A DNA stretch of 34,013 bases, from the NCBI GenBank assembly GCA_900088475.1, contig FLMG01001764.1, positions 1-34,013 on the forward strand. Direction: 5' to 3'. Shown one piece after another: positions 1-32,864 of this stretch. Positions within the stretch are counted from its first letter, which is position 1, and the number at the start of each line of letters is the position of its first letter. This DNA comes from Hyphochytrium catenoides. Taxonomy: Eukaryota; Sar; Hyphochytriomycetes; Hyphochytriales; Hyphochytriaceae. Under the pieces are notes generated by a model. That model was not told where the DNA came from. It saw nothing but the letters and a program-made list of their open reading frames with translations, and ran no database searches. The translations under genes were made by a program, and so were the position numbers.

Positions 1-3000
1 GATAGGTCTGAGGGCAGGAGAGAGAGAACAAAGAACATCATCTCCGCCACTCGAGGCAAGAGGAGTGAGCGTTCCTTGCAGTGCTGGAGGAAGGTAGACA
101 TTGGGAGAGATCTAGGTAACAGGATGTCCTTGAAGGACTGGAAGGCTGATGGATAGAGCGCAATAAGGCCAGAGGACAGCTGTAGGATGAGCTTCAACAA
201 TCGCCCGACCTCCTCTGTCTCTACCAGGCGGTTGCCCTCTATTTGCGCACAGGTCAAGCTTGTGGACTGGTTAACATCGAGGAAATGTTGAATCAGACGC
301 TCTGTCAAGTCTCTGACAACGTGTTCCCTCAAGAGGTTCTTCTCTTCTCCCTGTCCTTCACCCCAGCTATTCTCCTCCGGATCGCTCTTCTCTATGTCAG
401 CTTCCGGGACATGTCGAGCTTCCAGGAGGTTGCGGACCACTCTCAGGACACGATCAACGGACCAAGGCAGACAGCTCGCTTGGAACCAAACGTCATCTTG
501 GTCTTTACCATTCGTTTCCTCTGTGTTTGCCTTCTCTCCAGTGGTCCTGGTTAGCTGGAGACTGTCACTCAGCCAGAACCATAAGGCAGCAGAGAGGAAG
601 CTACCAAGATAGGGCCTCGCAAGAGAGTGATTGTGCTTCTCCATCGCGCTTGGGTGCCCTCCAGAGAGAGAGATATAGCAAGAAGAGTCTCTACGAGTCC
701 TGTCTCCTCTCCACAGTTTGCTCATTGTGTCGATTAGACCAAGCTCCTCTTCGCCTAACGTCTCTGCGATGGAAGAATGGAGCTCAATTCTCAGAGTAGA
801 CCAATGATAGCAAAGGAGAACCATGAGACCTCGGCTACCAGCCACACGCGTCATGAAGGCGCAGGACCTCTCTGACTTCTTGTCTTGTCTTTTCACGGCC
901 ATGAGGACAAGAGTCATTGAACGTCTAGACACGGGATAGAGCTCCCCAACAAGTGCTCTATCCTGCTTCAGCAAATGGTCAACATCCCTTGCTAGCTGTG
1001 CACAGGCTTCTCCGGCCTCCTCCGCCGTCATTGTGCTATCTGCCTGGTTCAGAATTGTGCAATAGAGCTGCAGATAAGCCATCCACATCCTTGGAGTACA
1101 TTCCCTTCCTCTCTCCTTCTCAAGACCTCTTTGCAGACCCAGCTCCATGCGTCTCCAAGCCGCAGAATAGTTCCCGAAGAGTTCTTTTAAAAGAGAGACT
1201 GCGAGCAAGAATCCTGATGGAGCGTGGTCAATAAAGCAAGCCGTTTCACCACTTTCTGCCCTCAAGTCAGCCTTTAAAAGGATATATTCCTCTGTGACAA
1301 TAATGAAGATTGTGGAGGTTAGAGCCATCTGAGTCGTGAAAGCCGGAGCTAACGATGGGTTGCTAAGCAAGAGCTGATGGTGGCTTGCCAGGATAAGGGA
1401 TGAGGTAAGAGAAGCAGCGCTATACTGAGAATCCTCTACGCAACCCAAAGCTAAGGATAGGCATGCAAACTGCAATGGTATAAAGACGAACAGTTCATCA
1501 CTACGGTCGATAAGCAACCGAAGTCATACCTAATTCTCTCACAATGCAAGAGGCGACCTCCCAAGCTACCTTCTCCATATTCCCTTGCAGACTGAGAAGG
1601 AAATTTTTGACAGATTTTCGACGATGAGGCTCTGGACTAGCATTGTCCTGAACGTGGAGCTCGAATTGCAGGAATTGCTGCACGGATAGGGGTTTCTTTT
1701 TCAGGATGTCTGGTCCAAGGTACGGCAACCGAGAGTGAGAACAGAATGGAAAAGTAGTGTACAAGGAACGTCACGCAGACTGCGGAAGCATACCGGCGAT
1801 GAGAGGCATTCTTAGAAGTTGATTTAGAAGATGCTGGTCTTCAACAGTGGCAGCTATGCATCGTATGTGGAACCAGTGCAGAAAGTAAAGCAGTTTGACT
1901 GGAATGAATCCTGGACAGAAGTGATCAGGAGTTATATCAGAGATCGTATCGAAGGAACGACAGCGGCTACTGAGGTGACATGGGCGATAAGTAAGGCCAA
2001 GAGTTTTGAGCGGATTTCAAGCATTGTGGGGAAGGTCAGGTGCGGAAGGGGATCTATAGTATAGGAAAAGCAGCGGAAAGAAGACGGAGGCTCTAACGCA
2101 CTCGAGTTACCTAAGCTATCTCGTGCTGCCACGAGCATTCTGTTTTCCTCGAAGGTCACTTCTGCAAACTGCCAAACCGTGGAGGAGATGTATTTCATAG
2201 AGAACGCGGCGGCAGACCTGATGTCTTTTAAGGTCTTACCCCTTGTACTGCAGAGAGCATCGACGACTTTTCTGCTGAACGCTCGAATGAATGATCGATC
2301 TGATGAAGTCATTTGCGGAGCCAGCTGCTCACTCGTTGGCTGGAGAAGTTTCGGAGGATGGGTTTGAGATAAGGAGAGAGAGCAAATAAGGCCAAAAATG
2401 GCAGCGGTCGTAAGACAGCCTCTAGAGGAATCTCGTTCCCCTTCACCAAGCTGCAACCCTATAAAATGTTCCATTGTCTCAAGCATGTGGCTGAGAAGAG
2501 AGGAAGCTGCCCGTCCTTTCTCGGTCTGGGATGTCTTCGCCTCACCAAATTCGTTGTGCTTCGTCCTCTTGGTGTCTACAAGCAAGTGGACGAGAAGGTA
2601 CCTCGTAGTCCGAGCCCGGGCTGCATTGTTCTGTTTAAAGGCCAGTACTAAGAGTCGGTGAAGGAGGTTGAGGACCAAATAAGCGCAATGAGGGAGCTGA
2701 GCCAAAAGCAACGCTTAGCTATCTCCCCTTGCAGGCGTCACTTGTTTTGGTTTTTAGCTTACCTCTTCCACCTTCAATTCTGCTACCAACTGCGTGAGCT
2801 TAGAGACATCAGAGATATCAGGTTGTTCACCTAAGAAAAGAATGAGTCCGGGGGAGGTGAATGGCAATTAAGCTCCAATGGAGAGGCTAGTCAATCAGCT
2901 TCCAGAATCTGAGGAATGACAACTCATAGCAGAGCAGAGACGAAGTAAGATTAAGCTTGAGAGATGGCCGTGATAGAAAAATTCCTTTTATAGAAAGATT

Positions 3001-5652
3001 TAGGAAGCAGAGCTCGTCGAGAGGTACTAGGTACCATGGAGAAGGCTGTACCTGATGGGCCAGCCGCAATTAGAGTTTGTTCTACCGAACGGAAGGTTGA
3101 CTCAAGTGAGGAAGGAGAAGTGCTTGTCTGGCTATTAGCGCTGTCCTGGGCTTTTTTGGCCCTCTGCAGCAACTCTTCATAGCGCTTGGAGACGCTCTCT
3201 AGCTCTTCCTTGGACACCAAACCTTCGGCCTGTAAGGCCCTAATAAGCTCCACTTGGTATTGGGCAGTGCAAAGTCCATCCTGGGCTTCTTCTAGTTCCT
3301 ATGAAAAGAGGGATGAACGTTTAAACTTTGACTAGTAAGAGGCAGGGCAAGAGATAACATCTGGGAAGGGGGTGCCGGAAGAGAAAGGAACAAAGAGAAA
3401 GACCGCTACTTTTGAGGCGGCATGGAACTGTTGACCACCAGATGCGAGGAGTCCAAGCCATGCCACGGATTTGAGGGAGGTGAAGAACGACCTTGAGCTC
3501 TCTGACGTTGGCTGGCAGAGTAAGCAGCGCCTTTTTTAACTTCAGCCACTTTGCCCTTTGGAAGAGAACAATTTCCTTCACTCTTCGAGGCAAAGCTTTC
3601 GTTCTTGCGAATGAAGCGACTAGTTGCTGGCATTCAGAAGCTATGGGATCAATCAGAGGCTTAAAGCCAGATATATCGGCTGTAGATAGGTCCTCCACCT
3701 ATGAGTATGAGTGAAGACATAGAGGTGAACTTGGAGCACTTGGCGCAGTAGAGCTCGATGCAGACGGTACCGACAGCCTTCAACATGTTATCACATCCTC
3801 CTTGTCCATTCCTCTTCTTAGTCACAGGGCTGCGTCCAATGCCCCTTGCTCCTTCCCTGACCCTTCCTTTGGTATCCGTGCAAATGGTGTTGCCGTCTAT
3901 TGTCACTCTCCGTAAGGCCAGGACGTAATACCTTCCACTCCTGCTCTCGTACTACCTCTACTTTCAACACATCATCAACTGTCTTGGTACGAACCTTAGT
4001 CAGGTCATGAAGCCGGGTGCGCACCAGCGATATGAAGTCCGAGACCTCAGGTGCTTGACAGAGCACCTTCACTGCTTTCTGATGGGCCCGCAGCTTCTCG
4101 ACACAGTCTGTCGGGACACTAAGAGAGAGGCACTCCATCCAGACAATAGTTCTCTTTTTCTGAATGAATGCGTTGTCGTCACTTCTCCAGTTAATGGCTG
4201 CACCTAGTCGCTGTCTCAGCTCCCGCATCGTAAGATTGAAGGACTTCATGCAGGCATCTTCCGACTCCTGGTCGTAAGCCACTTCTTCGATACTTCCACA
4301 GCTCAAGCATAGCTGCAGCCACACCAGATATAGAAAAAACATGCGCAAATTCTCTCCCTTTCGCGGCTCCATGTCCGTAGCAAAATGGTTCCAAAGGAGT
4401 GCGACAAAGACGCTAGCACGCTGTGGATTTCCTTGTTCTATACTCTTGGTGACAGACTTCGATGTCACCTTGTACAAAGCCTGAATGTATGGAAAGAGGC
4501 CCTCCTTCGAAACTGCCTTGGAATAGATACAAGCCAACGTCGAGATGGCGCCTGATAGAGTGATATCGTGGGCTTCAAGGACGTCACAAAGTAGAGCAAG
4601 GACGCACTCACACGACAGATAAAGAAGAAATAAATCTAAGAGCAGAGCAAGAGCCTGAGGACAGACATGGCCCCCACGCTCTACCGCTTCCTGAGGTGGA
4701 AAGCTCTCTTCCAGTGACCATCGCAATAAGCAAGACATTAACTGCTGAACATCGCGGATAGATACGAATGAAGCAGCAGCCTCTACAATCCGTTTGACGG
4801 AGGAATATCCCCCTCGGGCCCCTACGCTGCTGCGGAAGAGCTGCCTATACGTTTCCTCCAGAAGAGCTTGGGAAAGCCTAGATTCGCCTGGCCGTATCGC
4901 CGTCGAGGCGATGGTGTTTAACCATCGCGAGATAAGCCAATGAAGAATCTCTTGCCCTATGGCACATACAGAGCACCCTTCGATGTCCCCAGAATCACAG
5001 ATAAGCAAAGCCTTTAGCTGGTTAGTTAGAGCTGACAGTCGATCCTCATCTGCAGAGAGACCGGATGGGGAGCACCTTAGTCAACAAATGGTGGTCTAAC
5101 CTAAAAAAAACGCGCGGGGTGAAGGTTACCTGACGGCTTGGCAAAGAGGCTCTGGAATTCTGCCAGTCGAGAGCTGCTGAGTAGCCATAGACCAAGGAGT
5201 GAAACTGTTCCACTTGCTAATTTAGCGTGCAGCTTTTCCTGCAGTTGCTGCAGGACCAAAGGTGAGACACTGATAAGTGATAACGCTTCAAGAGACGAGG
5301 CCAATTCGACCACTCGTCTTTCCTGCAAGGACTATAAGGAAAATCATCAGTCCAAGGCATCATGATGGCAAGGGATGGATAGACTGTCGCTTACGTGCTG
5401 TTCTGCGGGCTGGCTGAGTAGCTTGTCAAGGATAGTTTTAGGATCAAGAGAAGGCTTGCCTTTGCTTCCACATGCAGATCTGAGCCGCCCATTGAGGGCC
5501 GAACCTTTCTTATTTACGAGGCTGCTTTGTAAGATGGAGGTACTGACATCTACCTCTAGCGGCTTGCAGTGACGCTTCGTATTGCTGTTGTTGGCCGCCA
5601 CGTCAAGCTGTAACCCTTCCAGCAAATCGAAGACGTGCGGTCGCTTGGGCAT
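1..5652 (-). CDS. FANCA: FANCA-like protein (Fanconi anaemia core complex), 5' about 1,470 codons, runs off left edge
   Basis: In animals FANCA is a nuclear scaffold of the Fanconi core complex, which promotes FANCD2-FANCI monoubiquitination in interstrand crosslink repair. Start is ATG at 5652 (MPKRPHVFDLLEGLQ). Proposed exons, high to low: 5652-5395, 5322-5130, 5049-3932, 3698-3492, 3298-3052, 2830-2763, 2696-2111, 1910-1794, 1709-1530, 1450-1; all phases agree. Stretches that align with FANCA as I know it: DFISLVRTRLHDL (human DYISLAKTRLADL) near residue 500, then VEDLSTADI (YEDLSSAGDI), VELIRALQAEGLV (VAFIESLKRADKI), and SVQQFLQFELHVQ (LTYQDWLHLELEIQ) near residue 940. Order and spacing match a ~1,455-residue protein, so the C-terminus lies just outside the window. 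Weak points: the exon 4 donor (GTCGTT at 3491) is poor; the exon 10 acceptor could be 1470 instead of 1451, but only 1451 keeps the frame. The rest is Leu-rich and helical. Confidence 0.78.
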
Positions 5653-6703: not shown

Positions 6704-8937
6704 CTACGTTAGACGGGTGAAGAGCATTCTCTCAGTAATCTTGCTGGGTTCATCCGGAAGATCAGCAAAGTCTGCAAAGCGCAGTAGCTCGTCTTTATCC
6801 TCTTCGCCTTCGGAGTCGTCCCGTGGAGTCTCAGGATACAATCCCTCAGTTTGGAGGTCGGCCGACAAGCCTGGACGAGTCGATCCATCGCCCTCTAACT
6901 CCGTTGACTTTCTTTACTAAACGTTCCAAGAAGTCTCCCCTTCCCATCTCCCGTTCGTACTTCACGCTGCATTCTAGCCGGGGAACATTGTACCTGATGG
7001 CAGCGATCTGATCTATCTCTTCTGGTCCCAGATGATTGACACGCTGAAAGTAAGCCTGCTGCTCCTCAGCAGTTCTACATGTCTTCCTGCTTTCCTCTCT
7101 TGCTACACTCGCGGGGTTGAGATGTATCTGGATTAGAAGAGGAGCTAGGGCTCGGTACTCGTGCTGGACTGTAGACCAAGCTAAGGCTGGCTGTAACCGC
7201 ATGTTGGCTAGTAGCGGATGGGTAAGATGGTGCGCCTTGATGCAGAAGCTGGCGAATTCTCCAATCAACTTTGTATAGTTCTCGTCAAAGCTGTCACTGA
7301 GAAGCTTCAGCGCTTTGTGGCACTGCTCCATCAGAGGGCCCTGGCCCAGTTCTAAGAAAGAATGGCCAAATCTTGTCTCTACAGCCTTTCTCATCTCGAA
7401 GAAGAAGGGGTCAGTGTAGAAGGCAAGAGCATGCAGAGGTGAATAGATGCCAGCCAGCCTCTTGTCGAGCAGCGCGTAGATGTCCTCAACAGCTTCGGGC
7501 TCCTCTAGTGACAGATTCTTTCTAACCTGCTTGTCCAACGTTGCTAGGTGGATCTTGCAGTACAGAAAGCAAGCATACACGGAAGATAGAGTCGTTCCTT
7601 CCTGCTCGAGATAGTGCGTGCAACTAGAGATAGGCCCCAAAAGCGCTTCCATTGCTGAGCATCGCTGCCAGAATCTCTCGTCTTCAAGTAGCTGCTTCAC
7701 AGTTTCTACGAGCTCTACGTCTGTCTTCAGCAAGGATCCATCACAAGCTGACCTGCTGGAAAGCCGTGTGGCCGCCGGCCGAACCCTGTTGAGCCTCTCA
7801 AACATCCGGACTGAGGTAGCCCAACGGGTCCTGGTAAAAAGAGCCAGGTTAATAGGCTTCCCTAGCTCCTCCTGGCAAATTCGTCGCAAGAGATCCTGGA
7901 GAGGAGAGGTCTCTTCAATGTGCCTTGTCACAGAAATCGCCTCTTTGAGGCTCCGGAATGGCTCTGGAAGCTTCAAGATGTCCACTACGACGTCGTTGAG
8001 GTTCTGAGACGCACAGCCATAGACTATGACAAAGGGCTTATCCTCTGGTGGGGACTGACGCATTTGGCGGACAACGGCGGGAGAGTCAGAAACGAAGCTC
8101 CATAGGATTCTGGGCCTATGCGCCTTCACTTCTCCAATGGCTTCCAATAGCTGGGTCTTAACCTCTACTAGTTGAGGGAGCAGACTATCTGCCAACCCAT
8201 TGTTTTGCCTGACTCTCAGGTGTTTAAGGAAATAATGCTCGGGACCACACGCCTCCAGCTTGAACACCTGTTGGCCGCGACGACTGCTGAGCGCCGTCCC
8301 AGCAGACAGACAGATTGTGCTCCACGACTTGATCTTTACCATTGTGTCGTCCATCACGGTCCGATACTCAGCTTGCAGGAGCTCCCCTCGAATCCGGGCG
8401 GCTCCGGGCAAAGTGTAGCCAGGCATTAGCGAGCCAAAGAAGTCTAACCAGAGTGGGTCCTCGAACGCATTGAAGGGAATGCCCGTACAGCATATGGCTC
8501 TCGCCAGCCTCCGGTCTAACGACAGCTCTCTCTGAGAAGAGATGGTCTTCGTTGCCGCAAATGCTGCTGTGGCGCCACTATTATGAGAGCGTCCTTCCCT
8601 TCTTTCATTAGACTTTTGCCTCTTTGCTGCTTTTTGCCTGTGGCATCGTTCAGGTTCACTTCTGCCAGGACCAGGTCCGTTGGACCGTCTAGCCTTTCGG
8701 ATCAGCTAAGAGGCTGGCATTTGACGAAGATGACGAGCTCTGCGTGTGGAAGAGCAGCGTTTGCCTTTCATCGCCCTGGTCTCTCTTTGGACACTTAAGG
8801 AGGTGCTGGCGGAGGCGGCCAATCAAAGCGACAACGTCTTTCCCACAGTGTTTGCAATCAACTCGCCAGCCTTTGGTCCCGCATTTATGATACTTCGCAC
8901 CGAACTCCGCCCAAGCGACATGTGCCGTTGGCGGCAT
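6704..8937 (-). pseudogene. hAT-superfamily transposase remnant (BED zinc finger plus DUF659-type), two frame breaks
   Basis: ATG at 8937. Segment 1 (8937 to about 8700) holds a BED finger: CKHCGKDV then RLRQHLLKCP, fitting C-x2-C...H-x4-C. Segment 2, in another frame, runs from about 8703 to 6846 and gives the core: LARAICCTGIPFNAFEDP and FFGSLMPGYTLP, then FVSDSPAVV, YGCASQNLNDVVVDI and TRTRWATSVRMFERL, which are DUF659/hAT landmarks. A third frame carries the acidic end (ERMLFTRLT, stop 6706-6704). The first switch must lie in the short overlap near 8688-8706, with no plausible intron, so it is a one-base frameshift; the second lies between 6846 and 6917 and could be a frameshift or a small intron. 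Signature residues have changed: the usual D-x-W is KSW, the C-x2-H has Gln for His, and the C-terminal ER...FS dimerisation motif is not recognisable. Probably a dead copy, or an unusual derivative. Confidence 0.8.
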
Positions 8938-15600: not shown

Positions 15601-18600
15601 TCTCTTTACGGAAGGACGGAAAGACAGGTACAAGGGGAAGAAGAGCACAACGAGAACGAGTGGGAGAGACAGTAAGTACAAGATACACCAATAGACAGAC
15701 AGCAGAGCGACCCGATGGCCAACAAGACAGAGCGCGGGACTGGACGTACACAAATCCACAAGTGCAGTTTGGCTCTAGCATGTAGTACTCCCTTGCCGCC
15801 TTCGCGTACTTCTCTCCTCCCCAGAAGTCGTAGAAAGGCGCTGGGATCTGCGCTACCGGTCTCTCCATAGACATATACTTAGGACGTGAGACCGAGTGCC
15901 GGATAGGGCTCTTCCTCCCAGTCTGACTAGTAAGCATTGGCTTTCTCTTTTCGCCCTGAGTGGCTCGGAAGATAGATGTGACGACATCTTTCCCCGTCAC
16001 AACCCGAAAAGACGTCTCTAGAACCTCCACCTGCTGGGACGAGCGGACGGGCTCTCCCATGGAGTTGTATGAAACAGTCACGCGAGTGGTGCGCATGGCC
16101 TTTAAACAGAACCGGTCAATGGTCAGGAAGCGGCAAGCTATAGGACCTTTTAACATTTGGAAGGACTTGGAATGCAGACGTGCAATATGCAAGGAAACAA
16201 TAGAATGCCAGCAGGAAAGAGTGGACTGGATCCTATACTAAGATGGAGACAGACGAAATTAATTCTATCGACGGGCGGAGCGGAGTTGGCTTTCGATGGG
16301 GGATATTGTGCTTAGAGGAGAAATGGTGATGGAGAGACACCCTATCGGTATATGCTTGCTCAGAGCGGCAGAGAAAAGAGTGTGTTCTTACTTCATAGGG
16401 GAGATGCTTCCGTCCTTCTCTCTCCTCTGCCTTCGGCGTAGGAGTGAGCTGAGCACCTTGATTGCTCACATCCGCATTAGTCTCATGTCCAGAAACCTGG
16501 GGAGCCTCTGACGGTATCCAGATGATGAGTCCGCAGTTGTCTAATAGGGCCCAGCCGCACTGTATCTCTCTCTTTCACTTTCTGCTGAAGTCCATCGATT
16601 CCCGTCAATATATTTTCTCTCTTTGATGCGATGTGGCATGCATTTAGACCGTCGCACTAACTCCCCTTCCTCGTCTCTTTTTCTCTCTCTCCCTCTCCCC
16701 CTTCTCTTTCACTCTGTCTCTCTCTCTTCTTTTTTTCCTCTCTCCGACCCGGATCTTGTTTAGATTGGGGTCGCGATCGCTAATGCTGATCTCCATCCTC
16801 TGTCTCCCTTACCTTGTTTCAACTCTTGAATGAGCTCGTCNNNNNNNNNNNNNNNNNNNNNNNNNNNNNNNNNNNNNNNNNNNNNNNNNNNNNNNNNNNN
16901 NNTCTACCTCTCCAGACGAGGCATCAGCATAACGGGCGAAGAGATCCTCAAGGTCCGTCTTAACCTGCAAGGAAGAATAGAAAAGGATAAGAATACCAGC
17001 GCTAGACGAAGGTGCTGGCATGCTTCGCATGGCTTTAGAAAAGAGAAGCCAAAAATTAAGTCTGAGGCTAGTGAGGAAGCTATGGGACTTCCATAAAGGA
17101 GTCAAAGGAAACACAGAGGTCTCTCATCTCTCTGACTCACCTCTTTGATTCTTTCACCCGTTACTATCAGACTGTGCGGGAGCGAAGGACCAACCAACGA
17201 CCCTTCCGGAGGAGGAGACAAAGCATCGCTCCTGTCGTTTATAGTCGTCCTTACTACTTCCTTTGAATGTCCAGCAGAGACTATAGGACACGAACGACTC
17301 TGAGCGACCAGTCAGACGAAGTGTGCAATGGGGGTTATAATACCTGTGCTGATAGAGGAATGAGGGAGAGAAACAGAGTGACAAGAGCCCCAAAGCTGTG
17401 CCGGTGACTGCTCGAGAGGAATAGCAACAGGCTCCTGCACGATATTCAGTTTTGCCGCAAGGTCCTTGCTGTTCCCTTCGGTCAATTTTCCTCTTATCTC
17501 GTTCCTGCTGATCAGTATGAGGTTTTCAGAGCCCAAGCAGACAATCTTTTCCACGCTCTGGGCAAAAAAGTAGTACTTCAGCGGGATCAGATCGATCCTC
17601 ACGTCCTCTCGAGAGGAAGAGTAAGAGACAGTGCGGGTCACTCCCCATAGAATGACCTGATGGTCCAAAGAAGAAGAAAGAAAGTAGCTGCGTTGATGGA
17701 GTGGATTGGCCTTCAGTTCCGAAGCCTCGTCAGGAGAGTAGCCGGGGTTATGGGGAGTAAAGGGCACAATTGAGGTGACGTGGTCCGAGTGCTCTTGAAC
17801 GTAGAGCTTCTTATCTGTTTTTCTCTCTTGATCTTCACTGCCAGAATCAATGGCCCAGACAGCAATCAAACCTCCTGTCAGGCCGCAGACGACCGCCGGC
17901 GGAGAAGGTAATGCGATAAAGCAGGAAAGAGAGGAGGCACTTCTAATCAGACTGCGTGAATCAATGCCAGAAGTGGAAGGAGACGGGTGACCCTTTCCAG
18001 TGTCCATGAATGTTTTCTTCAACACGTTGTACGTAGCAGCGCAAAGAACATGAATGAAGCCGTCGCTTCCAGCCGTCACAAGCACTCTCCTCTCTCCAGT
18101 TCGAACCTCTTCTTCAGTTATCTGTGAAGCGCAAAAGCCATAGGGCGAAGATGACGGGGAAGAGCCTGGGCATCTTAGATTACATAGCTGCATCCCGATT
18201 ATGGAAGCGCCATGCAGCCTCCAACACTTAGAGAGGTGCGGAGGGGCAGAAGCGGGCAAGCTCCAGACGTAGACGATGCCTTCGCTTGTCCCTGCCACGA
18301 TGTGATAGTTTGAAAGTGAAGAAGGATATAGAGTTGGCTCCCGCTCTTTACGATAACTTCCTTCCTTAGTCCTCCGTGGCAGTTTGCCACCCCAAGGAGC
18401 AGCGACTTCCTCCTTAGGAGCTACGTTACTTACTAAGTGCTCACTTGCTTGCTGCAGCGAAGTGAGTGCGGACGGAGGGATGAGACAAAGAGAGGATATC
18501 GATGCTGTGGCTTCGGGATGTTGAAGTCTGCAGCTGGGATGTTCCCCATTTGCATCTATTACGTCGATTTGCCCGTTCTCCCAACCTACTATGAAGCATG

Positions 18601-21114
18601 AACAAGAAGGGTCGTAGTGAAGAGAGGTTGTCCTCAACTGAGAGGACGCTGGCCTCTCCCCTCCCGTAGCTAGAGAGGAAGAAGGAGATGAGCCAAAAGG
18701 GTAGACAGAGAACATTCTGAAGCCTGCTGGCCCTCCCGTCGTAGAAACAAGGGCGCCAGAGGAGGTGATGGCTGTTCCAGCCTTATAAATAGTTGGAAAC
18801 CTCTCCTTCAGTTTATGAAAGGATTCTTCGAGGGTCTTAATGTCTGCCACCGTACTCGAAGAGAGAGAGACAATAGCTTCCTTCGGATTGTTTGGGGTGA
18901 AGTCCTCCTGCCCAGCTCCGCTGCTTTCTGCTTGGCCGGTGGACTGTCCTTTGGGGCGATCCACGGCATAGAAATGCATCTGGTTATCGTCAGTGAGCAT
19001 TACCATTCTTCCAATATATTTCTTTTGCCCCTCTTGCTTCCCGGGTTCGTCTCTCTCTTGAAACTCATAAAGAGACTGAATTGAAGCAGGCGAAGAGTCA
19101 AACGTGTGACACCTCGTTCTGATCCTAAACGTAGATATAGAATCAACCGCTACAACGATAAGGGCGGGGGCATTGCAATCTTTTGATGCCAGCTTGGCAT
19201 CTACGAGAAAACGTGCCCAAATTGGCCCAGAAAAAGAGAGGACAGGTGATGACGAAGCAGAAAGTCCTCCGGGGCAGGCCAAGTTGATTTCTCCCAAAAG
19301 TTCCCAGCTTTCATAGTTCCACTGACGGACATAGCCATCCTCTCCTGCCGTGAATAGGCTGCTGGAGGAGAGCTTGGCATTGCCGACATACCTGGGAAGA
19401 AGGGGACAGCAGAGACAGCCGCGCGAGGAGAAGTAAATAAGAGTTAATTAGGGGCATCTGGGAGAGAAGAAGTGCTTGCATCCCAGGATGGGAATAGAGA
19501 GTATCTGAACAAAGTTTAGAGAGGGAAAAAGGGGTCATAGTCCCCTTTCGAAAGATGTGTTAAGAGAAGAGTAGCTCTACGAGGAGTCACTCAAAATAGA
19601 AAAATGACGAGGAGCAATAAGTCCGTAGCCAGGTGCAGGTCCTACAATGCAGAGATCCTGCCTTCATGAAGCTGCTTCTTCTGATGCGACACACGGCCCA
19701 GTGCAGCCTCTTCTGCTGTCATCTTGGGAGCCCGCTCATCCCAGATGCGCACAATACCGCGCTCATGGCCGGTGATTACCTTACTAATTCCAGGAAGAAA
19801 ACATAGAGTCGTCACTTTTCCTCCTAGAAAGTTCTCAAAGCAATGAGAGAGAGAAAGGGTGGCCAGGGACCAGATCCAAATGTTAGCTCCATCTTCTGTA
19901 CAGCCAATTACCACGTTCCGCCTGCTATTGAGGTGAAGGAGCCCGACAGGGCGGTCGTGACCCATCAAAGTCCCTACCAAGGTAAGAGAGAGCGGAAGCG
20001 CCTTTCCTCCCAATCCTTCCGCCCCTACCTCTCCCCCTTGCCCTGCATCAGCGTCTGCCGCAGAGCTGGTGTCGCTAGGTATCGAGAACTTCCAGACTTT
20101 AATGACGGAGTCAAGCATGTCAGGGCGCCCTAGTCCAATCCTGTCCGCCGGAAAAGGCTCAGTCTTATCTATCTCTCCCCCTTTATCACTGCCACATGTT
20201 ATGAGACAAGAGTGCGAATCATCATAGGCTGCGCACTGAGTGTAGGACTTATGCAGGCGAATAATAGCAGCAGGCTGAAGAGAAGGGAGAAGCAGCCTTG
20301 CTGTCCCAGCATCCTGAGGTCGAGCCCCTTCCAGTGCTTGGGTCACTACTTCAACAGTGCCGCTAACTTCTTCGAGTGCCTCTCTTTCTTCAGTCCAAGT
20401 GTCTCCTCGTTCTTTCCCCCCAAAAGTAATGAGATAGCGGTCCAAGGCAGACACGTAGGAAGCTTGAATAACTCTGGTCCGCGCGACTCCTCGCTCGCTG
20501 AGAGGAACTCTTGCAATCTCTTTCTGAGACGAACTTAGAAGTAGGGCAGCAAGAAATAGTTCAGAGAGATATAGAGACTAAAGCCAGAAACCATCATCAA
20601 AGGGAACGGATCGGGTATAGACTAGAGGCCAAGGGAAAATTAGCTGAGTCGTGAGAAGGAGCAAAAGAATGGAAGAGACTTCAGATAAGCAGCGGAAGGT
20701 TGTGGGCTGTGGTCAGACTTAAACTTTCATCTTCGACTTTCGACTATAAAAAATGTGGCGCTGGTTCGGACTGTGCCGGCTGATACTGTAAGGAGAGTTA
20801 ATGAAGAGAAAGAGTGTGCTTACAAGAGCTTGAAACAGGCTTGGTCTGCCAGCAAGGTGGCATGTCGCCGCCAGTCGTAAGCGAAAGCATCCGTTCGGAA
20901 AGGTGCGACTCCCAAAGGGATTCGATATGCAAGCTCCAGGGAGCAAAACTGATGACTCCCTTGGCCTTCTTCCTCTGTGGACAGTTTTAATGTCTCCTCC
21001 ACTCTCGCCCGCTATAATGCAGACCTAAGACCTTTGACTATTGAACCTGTAGCGTAGAGAAGTGGCACTTACCCCTTGGCTACCAGCCTCAACGTCCGAG
21101 GTATCCTCTTCCAT
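9665..21114 (-). CDS. Giant protein: WD40 repeats, Cys cluster, EF-hand-like region, PPC-like domain, C-terminal TM anchor (~2,870 aa)
   Basis: Family not recognised. ATG at 21114 (MEEDTSDVEAG). Proposed exons: 21114-21073, 21011-20824, 20533-19646, 19391-17344, 17280-17141, 16964-16813 (with the N gap), 16567-16392, 16225-15750, 15489-14898, 14613-12520, 12323-11821, 11588-10917, 10605-10200, 9892-9665. Phases agree throughout, apart from the gap exon, so I propose one gene. Residues ~60-1050: WD40 blades (SVIKVWKF, GIVRIWDE, GYVRQWNY, GIVYVWSL, GLIAVWAI, HQVILWGV). ~1365-1385: Cys cluster C-x-C-x11-C-x2-C. ~1480-1700: helical region (VCEDFIHQYGDRMVAQ) and a degenerate EF-hand loop (VDEDRTGCVKLSLF). 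~1800-2430: Ser/Glu-rich acidic linker. ~2595-2690: beta domain like bacterial PPC domains (PLEGSIPGKG, YEFYASRRVIPSRLDHEW). ~2814-2832: membrane span (APLIAAVCVLVLIAIFAL) with a ~36-residue basic tail. The last acceptor (9893) is the least certain. It could still be two genes meeting at the gap. Confidence 0.65.
16841..16902. other. Assembly gap (62 N) inside an exon of the giant gene
   Basis: Coding sequence is visible on both sides: VKTDLEDLFARYADASSGEV upstream (16964 down to 16903) and DELIQELKQ downstream (16840 down to 16813). A CT-rich low-complexity run at about 16670-16745 lies close by and may explain the assembly failure. The gap size does not fit the reading frame (see findings). 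Confidence 0.95.
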
Positions 21115-30204: not shown

Positions 30205-32864
30205 TCACATTTTCCCGGGTGGGTGGAAGTGATGCCCATCGCTCGAGCTCCAATACCCAGTGCTATACAAAAGGCGAAGAAGCAGCAGCTCTCGAAGCAT
30301 TGAGAGACTGGCACCCGCAAGGCTCAGCTTGGAGCCCGGAACCTCAGTCCATCGCACAGGCACCTCCTAAACGAAGAGGTGCAAGCAATGGAGGGATGAG
30401 GAAGGGCCGCTTACTCTGTATCTCGTCGCCCCGCCGTGCTCCGTGCGTCATACTGAACCTCTGTTGCGCAATACCTAAGTCACTATAGCACGCCAATGTA
30501 TTTGCTTGGTCCTCTTCAGCTAACATAACCTCCTATATCCCTCAACTCTTTTAACCATTCCCTACCACGTTGATATATATTGATTGGTCCACGAAATCCC
30601 AGGTCATACCTTCACTATTATATGCTCCATACGTGCCACATACAGAAGCTCGACGTCGAAGGCCCAACGCTCAATGTGCATTGCTGGAAAGAGCTTTCTG
30701 GCGGCTGTCCTAGAAAAGAGCTTAAAGCCACATTGGGTGTCTCTCACGCCGGTAGGAGTCAAAGTGTTCACCGTGAAGTGAAACCCCTTCATGAGAATGT
30801 TGCGATACCAAGCCCTCTGCGTAGTCAGGGAAGGAGACAAAAGGGTAGCAAAAAACTTTAGGGCTCCTAAGCCGTCAGGCTGTGTCGTAGGAGGACTTGG
30901 AGATATCGAAAGCGTGAAGGGTGGCACCCTTAGATTGAATGGTAGAGGTACAGCAAAGTTACAGATACTATGGCAATGAGATACGACGCCGAGGAAAATC
31001 AAACGGCAGGTTTCCAGGAAGAAGAGCCGTTCAATGTACGATTGAAAATTCAGTCCCTCCGGTGCCATTCAGCCAATATGACTCCGTCTCTTTCTTTCTC
31101 TGCTCCACCTCTTCCCGCCTGCCTGATATCTGCCTCGTGGTCCCAAATCCCCCACATACCTTGGCCAGCGCCACATCCTCTAAATGGGCCCTGCTCCCTG
31201 CAACAATCAAACTTCGTGGGTCATCTACTGGTGGAATCTCCTTCCATAAAAGCTCAAGGTCTTCAAATTTTGTCGCCCCATCGGCGTCAGCCATCAAAAT
31301 ATATTCGCCAGATGAGCGAAGGACTCCCTACACACAGATTGTGATTAGTACAATCAAAGACTGGCAGGCGATAACAGTCTCACACATCACAATAAGAACG
31401 GTAAAGAAACATCAAGGAATGTATGGCTAACGACCGATTAGATCATAGTGCATCGTCTAAAGCGATAATAAGACATGCAAAGTGTTTCTGTCGGGAAACT
31501 GAGGATAAACTCTTTGACTCAGAGAGAGTCAAGAAAAGCAGAAGCAGTAGAGGAAGCAAGACCTTGCGGACAGCGCCTCCTTTGCCATTGTTCTGCACAG
31601 ATTTAACCAGTTTGATGGACGTTGAGGGATGGTCTGCAGCGTACTGAAGGGTGACGTCTGCCGTCCGATCCTTACTGCCATCATCCACTACTATGATCTC
31701 GAAGGAGAAGCTACTACAAAGAAGAGAAGGAAGAGCGAGGCCCACGCCATCTTGGTAAGTACCCGGGAGAGCTCCGAGTTAGGAGAGCGACCGCTTCAAA
31801 TATATAGGCGAGACCGTCTCGGCTAAACGTCTTTGCAATCATGAAGAAAGAGATAGGAGGCTTCGCTGCCCAAGGGCAGGCTCTCGTGTAGGTCTTTGCA
31901 AACGGGTCTCCGCCTTCACACTGTCCTTAGCAAACGGTTTCTTCCTCACTATACCTCCTTATATAATGAAGAGTCGCGGAGACCATAGTTACCTTTCCTG
32001 ATTCTTTTTCCTTTTCAGATAACGGATGGTTTCGTCGAGCATGACTGGAAGTCTGTCTTCTTCGTTATAGGCAGGAACTACAACGGAAAGAGTGACAGTG
32101 GCCTCGTCGAAGAGAGAAGGAAAGGGCACTCTGTGGAGATTAAGAAGAGGATGTGAATAAGAATATAAGTTACAAAGGAAAGGAGCCCAACGTATAGCTA
32201 GGAAGAGGACAGAAGTAGCGAACTGCACGGAGACTGGTTGTCAATATAGTGGCTAAGAAGAGGCTGAAGGACTGGTAGAGCGGGAACGCGTCCGTAGTAG
32301 ACACGCAACACAATCTAGCAGACAGGCCAAGAAAGTAACCAGACGTCGACGATTTGTAGACCTGGAGTTACGACAGGACTTTGGAAGCAGGAGCGGACAC
32401 CAGATGAAGAGCTGGATTTCGGCCCACATGACCAAACGCGAGAGAGCGGTTCTTCATGCTGTTACCTCTTTCCGGTGTGTGGCTGAAGGAAAGTACTCTC
32501 AGACTCGGGATATGGATCACTAAGGCTCCTTTCTAGCTGCCGCAACGGTCCCAGTAGCCATTGAAGGGCGAAAGCCTGCTTTGAGAGAGGCGATCCAGAC
32601 TATCTTTAGCGATAAATTGGCAGCAAAGCAGAGGAAGTTGTCCGCAGAAAGGAAAAGGTATAGAAAGCTTTCCCTTCACCTCGAAAGAGCTATGAGTGGG
32701 GAGAAAGAGCCATTAAAACGACAGCCCGAAGGTAAAGCAGTGGAGGCAGGCTGTCAGCAATGCCCAGGACTAAATAGTGCGAAGCGTCGGCATTGCTTGA
32801 GACAACTTTGACCCACCAGCAGCACGGCAGCCAGGACGAACGCAACACCGAACCCAGGCTTCAT
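30205..32864 (-). CDS. ALG5: Dolichyl-phosphate beta-glucosyltransferase ALG5, 326 aa, 7 exons
   Basis: Transfers glucose from UDP-glucose to dolichyl phosphate at the cytosolic face of the ER; the Dol-P-Glc is used to complete the N-glycan precursor. Exons: 32864-32817, 32575-32466, 32130-31993, 31710-31563, 31327-31160, 30816-30610, 30366-30205; all phases agree and 981 bases give 326 residues (human ALG5 has 324). An N-terminal signal anchor ([16 protein letters not shown]) is followed by the GT2 fold: [40 protein letters not shown], the DxD-containing [13 protein letters not shown], then [40 protein letters not shown] and [11 protein letters not shown]. Catalytic and nucleotide-binding residues appear intact. 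No KK-type ER signal is seen at the C-terminus. The exon 2 acceptor could be three bases further upstream. Confidence 0.95.

Follow-up and report, generated by a model that had tools for sequence, protein, structure and literature searches.

A probable, highly diverged FANCA homologue at a contig end in a stramenopile genome

The stretch of DNA analysed here, referred to as the window, is G000:C843:1-34013 (34,013 bases); it starts at the first base of a contig in a 42.5 Mb assembly of 1,105 contigs. At this end lies a minus-strand gene that runs from an ATG at 5652 to base 1 in ten GT-AG exons and encodes an open protein of 1,458 residues, probably a homologue of FANCA. The frame has no stop codon, its 3' end being lost at the contig start. 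The splice joins are predicted, having been picked by hand from the sequence, and alternatives exist for the donor of exon 4 and for the paired choice of exon 9 donor and exon 10 acceptor. With these predicted joins, a single protein of close to 1,450 residues results (1,458 vs 1,455 in human FANCA). FANCA, known in humans as a gene for the repair of DNA crosslinks, is generally regarded as confined to animals and lineages close to them. The initial annotation had proposed a FANCA homologue in a protist genome on the basis of four stretches, DFISLVRTRLHDL, VEDLSTADI, VELIRALQAEGLV and SVQQFLQFELHVQ. All four are present, in order, within open exons of this one gene, and two of them match FANCA above chance.

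Sensitive sequence comparison found significant similarity to FANCA in a block around FANCA residues 507-589. A matrix profile of 11 FANCAs (ten of the 120 listed mammalian sequences plus Xenopus) scored the spliced protein at 70.2, compared with 34.7 +- 3.7 for 1,500 shuffles, none of which reached that value (best 55.9; Gumbel-fitted P 3.3e-6). Among 215 comparison sequences, comprising 120 HECT proteins and stop-to-stop frames from the window (at least 120 amino acids) and from other loci (at least 100 amino acids), the next best were the candidate's own exon 3 open reading frame (ORF; 46.7) and an unrelated HECT protein (40.6); this background is small, holds few helical-repeat proteins and includes the candidate's own exon frames. 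A hidden Markov model (HMM) of ten mammals and Xenopus also put the spliced protein at the top of a set of 1,002, ahead of its own reverse and 1,000 shuffles (5.4 vs 3.1 bits, E 0.12 in that set), and aligned window residues 489-565 with FANCA model positions 507-589. The FANCA_helical region of human FANCA spans 544-625. In a MAFFT alignment, this middle block is 29% identical to human FANCA, the sequence of which was checked against 7kzp_A.

The pairwise, shuffle and exon tests follow the numbering of orangutan FANCA P0022 (1,455 aa). Pairwise alignment with this protein under BLOSUM62 scored 86 vs 49.9 +- 6.0, a value reached by none of 200 shuffles (best 81). When exons were compared singly with the FANCA profile, exons 3 and 4 each gave an in-register match of their own, to FANCA stretches that lie next to each other. 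Exon 3, with DFISLVRTRLHDL, scored 46.7 (0/400 shuffles; fitted P 0.0024), and exon 4, with VEDLSTADI, scored 35.9 (3/400 shuffles; P 0.0092), placing both stretches above chance. Exon 9, which holds SVQQFLQFELHVQ, has its best match in register (window 936 / FANCA 942) with a score at chance level (137/400 shuffles, P 0.35). Exon 5, which holds VELIRALQAEGLV, is at chance level, its best match lying at FANCA 196, out of register, and its score being reached by 120 of 400 shuffles (P 0.31). In exons 1, 2, 5-8 and 10, the best match falls out of register, and P is never below 0.074 (exon 7). Most of the match comes from some 80 residues.

The wider genome provides a pathway context. The initial annotation had suggested looking for FANCG, FANCL, FANCD2 and FANCI, and the last three are present. 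FANCD2 has six matches on C16, five of which exceed the curated cut-off; FANCI is represented by two domains on C177, and FANCL by its C-terminal domain on C259 (E 1.6e-24).

The protist origin suggested by the initial annotation is supported by the introns and by a multi-exon HECT E3 ubiquitin ligase in the same window, recognised by Pfam HECT in two pieces. Among the 30 best of its 120 listed database matches, 25 are named oomycete proteins with 47-61% identity. A midpoint-rooted tree of 46 rows (the query and 45 of the 120 listed matches) puts the ligase on one side of a supported split (95/96), together with Mucochytrium, ten named oomycetes and nine rows that carry no species name; its position directly beside the oomycetes is weakly supported (82/58). 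Placement of the genome among the stramenopiles, the group that includes brown algae and water moulds, is supported by this ligase tree. A light-harvesting-protein profile search of the genome found no match, and from this one silent search the stramenopile may be non-photosynthetic.

Among the other neighbouring genes, an open frame of 619 residues matches DUF659 below threshold (E 0.18), has no relative in the PDB at E up to 0.1 and may be a hAT-type transposase gene or remnant. Two long open frames, perhaps forming one gene, have weak sub-cut-off matches to WD40 / EML-like beta-propellers. A further set of exons encodes a family 2 glycosyltransferase (E 1.1e-9), presumably ALG5-like judging by its motifs. 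One neighbouring gene, compared with plasmids by megablast, gave no match.

Table 1. Predicted exons of the candidate FANCA gene and other features of the window
Feature	Position	Strand	Residues	Observation
Exon 1	5395..5652	-	1-86	ATG at 5652; GT-AG; lacks a FANCA signal by itself, P 0.64, out of register
Exon 2	5130..5331	-	87-153	No FANCA signal, P 0.21, out of register
Exon 3	3995..5049	-	154-505	FANCA match ends at window 503 / FANCA 521; DFISLVRTRLHDL at exon end
Exon 4	3492..3698	-	506-574	FANCA match ends at window 565 / FANCA 589; VEDLSTADI at exon start
Exon 5	3052..3298	-	575-656	Contains VELIRALQAEGLV; chance level, P 0.31, out of register
Exon 6	2763..2830	-	657-679	P 0.43, out of register
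Exon 7	2111..2696	-	680-874	P 0.074, out of register
Exon 8	1794..1910	-	875-913	P 0.17, out of register
Exon 9	1543..1709	-	914-969	Contains SVQQFLQFELHVQ; in register (936/942), score at chance, P 0.35
Exon 10	1..1469	-	970-1458	Truncated by contig start, stop codon outside window; P 0.27, out of register
Open frame	6846..8705	-	619 residues	Sub-threshold DUF659 match
Two open frames	17312..20577	-		Weak WD40 / EML-like matches
HECT E3 ubiquitin ligase	22713..about 26230	+		Multi-exon
Family 2 glycosyltransferase exons	30604..32240	-		Match at 31446-31778

Several results weigh against homology to FANCA. Pfam found no FANCA family in the spliced 1,458-residue protein, in a 482-residue middle piece searched at E up to 10, or in ten ORFs of the window, four of them from the candidate gene. 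Fanconi_A_N, FANCA_helical, FANCA_arcN and FANCA_CTD all lacked a match above cut-off, and human FANCA, the positive control in the same run, matched all four. Because this curated match fails, FANCA membership is called probable and not established; the initial annotation had named the lack of a FANCA profile hit as a reason to reject its proposal, and for Pfam this is literally the outcome. The candidate locus was not recovered when the whole genome was searched with FANCA_helical and Fanconi_A_N, phmmer against the PDB returned no chain for the candidate protein at E up to 10, and under two BLOSUM45 settings the real pairwise score was exceeded by one of 200 shuffles in each. Genome profile searches for FANCE, FANCC, FANCF, FAAP100 and the FANCM MHF-binding domain also gave no match, although absence is not implied.

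Database searches were similarly silent on relatives. For residues 490-960 compared with 5.8 billion proteins, none was found at E up to 1 among 7,984 scored candidates, these being the proteins that shared most words with the query and had 0.55 to 1.75 times its length. As a database query, human FANCA 480-680 matched 868 proteins. The best 120 of these were all named mammals, so no broad FANCA profile was built; any non-mammalian FANCAs in that database lay outside these 120 and were thus not visible.

Similarity also fades outside the block. The score of residues 1-480 was reached by 7 of 150 shuffles, which is borderline, and that of residues 605-1458 by 29 of 150, which is chance level. 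Aligned globally, neither the N part nor the C part rose above chance (z 1.3 and -0.3 for residues 605-1458), the reversed N part even scoring 49 vs 38 for the real one under BLOSUM45; the profile used in the terminal tests held vertebrates only, and its power at such divergence is low. Exons 3 and 10 were folded singly, without an alignment, and gave low-confidence models, that of exon 3 being all-helical (folded from 3995-5050, with one intron base included and the first residue the same as in the splice join). When exon 3 was aligned with full-length mammalian FANCAs, the match spread over the whole length, and this alignment was not used for folding. The first Foldseek rows, none at E 0.001, included TPR chains, importin chains and designed repeats, and the first 50 rows contained no FANCA chain; the structural alignment of exon 3 is about 24 residues off the sequence register at the C-terminal end. 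A full-length FANCA, as raised by the initial annotation, is not shown, given terminal parts at or near chance, silent Pfam models, low-confidence structures and a gene truncated by the contig. Because the signal is confined to exons 3-4, homology of the remaining protein would be argued from length, order and position rather than from similarity throughout.

These observations leave room for another explanation, which we consider unlikely: the gene would encode an alpha-helical (HEAT/ARM-like) stramenopile protein that is unrelated to FANCA and has a chance likeness to it in the middle. This explanation draws strength from the short extent of the signal and the lack of any Pfam match, from an exon 3 model that fits other helical proteins, such as CNOT1 and Integrator subunits, equally well as or better than FANCA, and from the choice of FANCA out of very many remembered protein families, which consumes part of the P value. 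However, chance resemblance would have to produce independent, in-register matches to adjacent FANCA stretches in two exons, at almost equal residue numbers in proteins of almost equal length, and in a genome that also holds FANCD2, FANCI and FANCL. The fitted P of 3.3e-6 is moreover the value before any credit for position.

Alternatively, the true FANCA could lie elsewhere in the genome, the candidate being a paralogous or fusion protein with one FANCA block. The sole genome-wide FANCA_helical match does lie elsewhere, at G000:C64:81958-82131 (L009, 1501-1674; E 0.0023, 23.6 bits). However, it was judged spurious, being below the curated cut-off and interrupted by two internal stops; its translation shows no FANCA motif by eye, and the same search also matched Methanocaldococcus jannaschii below cut-off. 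Fanconi_A_N gave no candidate in the genome, which does not imply absence. A second, truer FANCA thus seems very improbable.

In summary, the gene is probably a highly diverged FANCA homologue in a stramenopile, a reading to which we assign a probability of roughly three in four from sequence evidence. It is favoured because a significant match of about 80 residues lies near the diagonal, the protein is of near-equal length, and FANCD2, FANCI and FANCL occur in the genome. By analogy with the vertebrate core complex, in which FANCA and FANCG have been proposed as a chromatin-targeting module (PMC10085685), the candidate would be a long alpha-helical scaffold of such a complex. This scaffold would help to recruit the E3 ligase FANCL to damaged chromatin, where FANCD2 and FANCI would then be monoubiquitinated during crosslink repair.

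If true, a stramenopile FANCA would move the origin of the gene far back, and would suggest that other 'missing' subunits may also be too diverged for current profiles. On balance, we lean towards a scenario in which an ancestor shared by stramenopiles and opisthokonts already had FANCA together with a multi-subunit Fanconi anaemia (FA) core complex, followed in most lineages by loss or by divergence past the reach of profiles. In that case, the 'minimal FA pathway' seen in many protists may be partly a detection artefact.

Previous work places most core-complex genes in the ancestral metazoan (PMC2730050). For Arabidopsis, two yeasts, fly and worm, FANCA is listed as not found (PMC4132730), and a study of three dinoflagellates found no FANC core genes in them (PMC6680887). 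FANCA has been reported in Mucor, a member of the Mucoromycota (PMC11061109). Together with choanoflagellate reports of its N-terminal domain (PMC6792448), this qualifies the earlier statement that FANCA is best known from animals, and its occurrence outside animals is not new as such. Among the papers listed, our literature search recognised no report of a stramenopile FANCA, with most subscription papers and preprints outside its coverage.

Compared with human (7kzp_A) and Xenopus (6lhs_B) FANCA, the candidate shares a length of about 1,450 residues, the 507-589 block and, in a low-confidence model, the helicity of exon 3. It differs in being at or near chance outside the block and in lacking a Pfam FANCA match. 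Mucor FANCA likewise occurs outside animals, with a reduced FA set that includes FANCD2 and FANCL; however, it falls under PF03511, for which the candidate has no match, and belongs to a different eukaryotic supergroup (PMC11061109). The choanoflagellate Fanconi_A_N proteins are pre-metazoan relatives of FANCA, as the candidate would be if homologous. In the choanoflagellate paper, the gain of Fanconi_A_N is dated to Choanozoa, whereas a stramenopile copy would need a much earlier gain or a transfer (PMC6792448).
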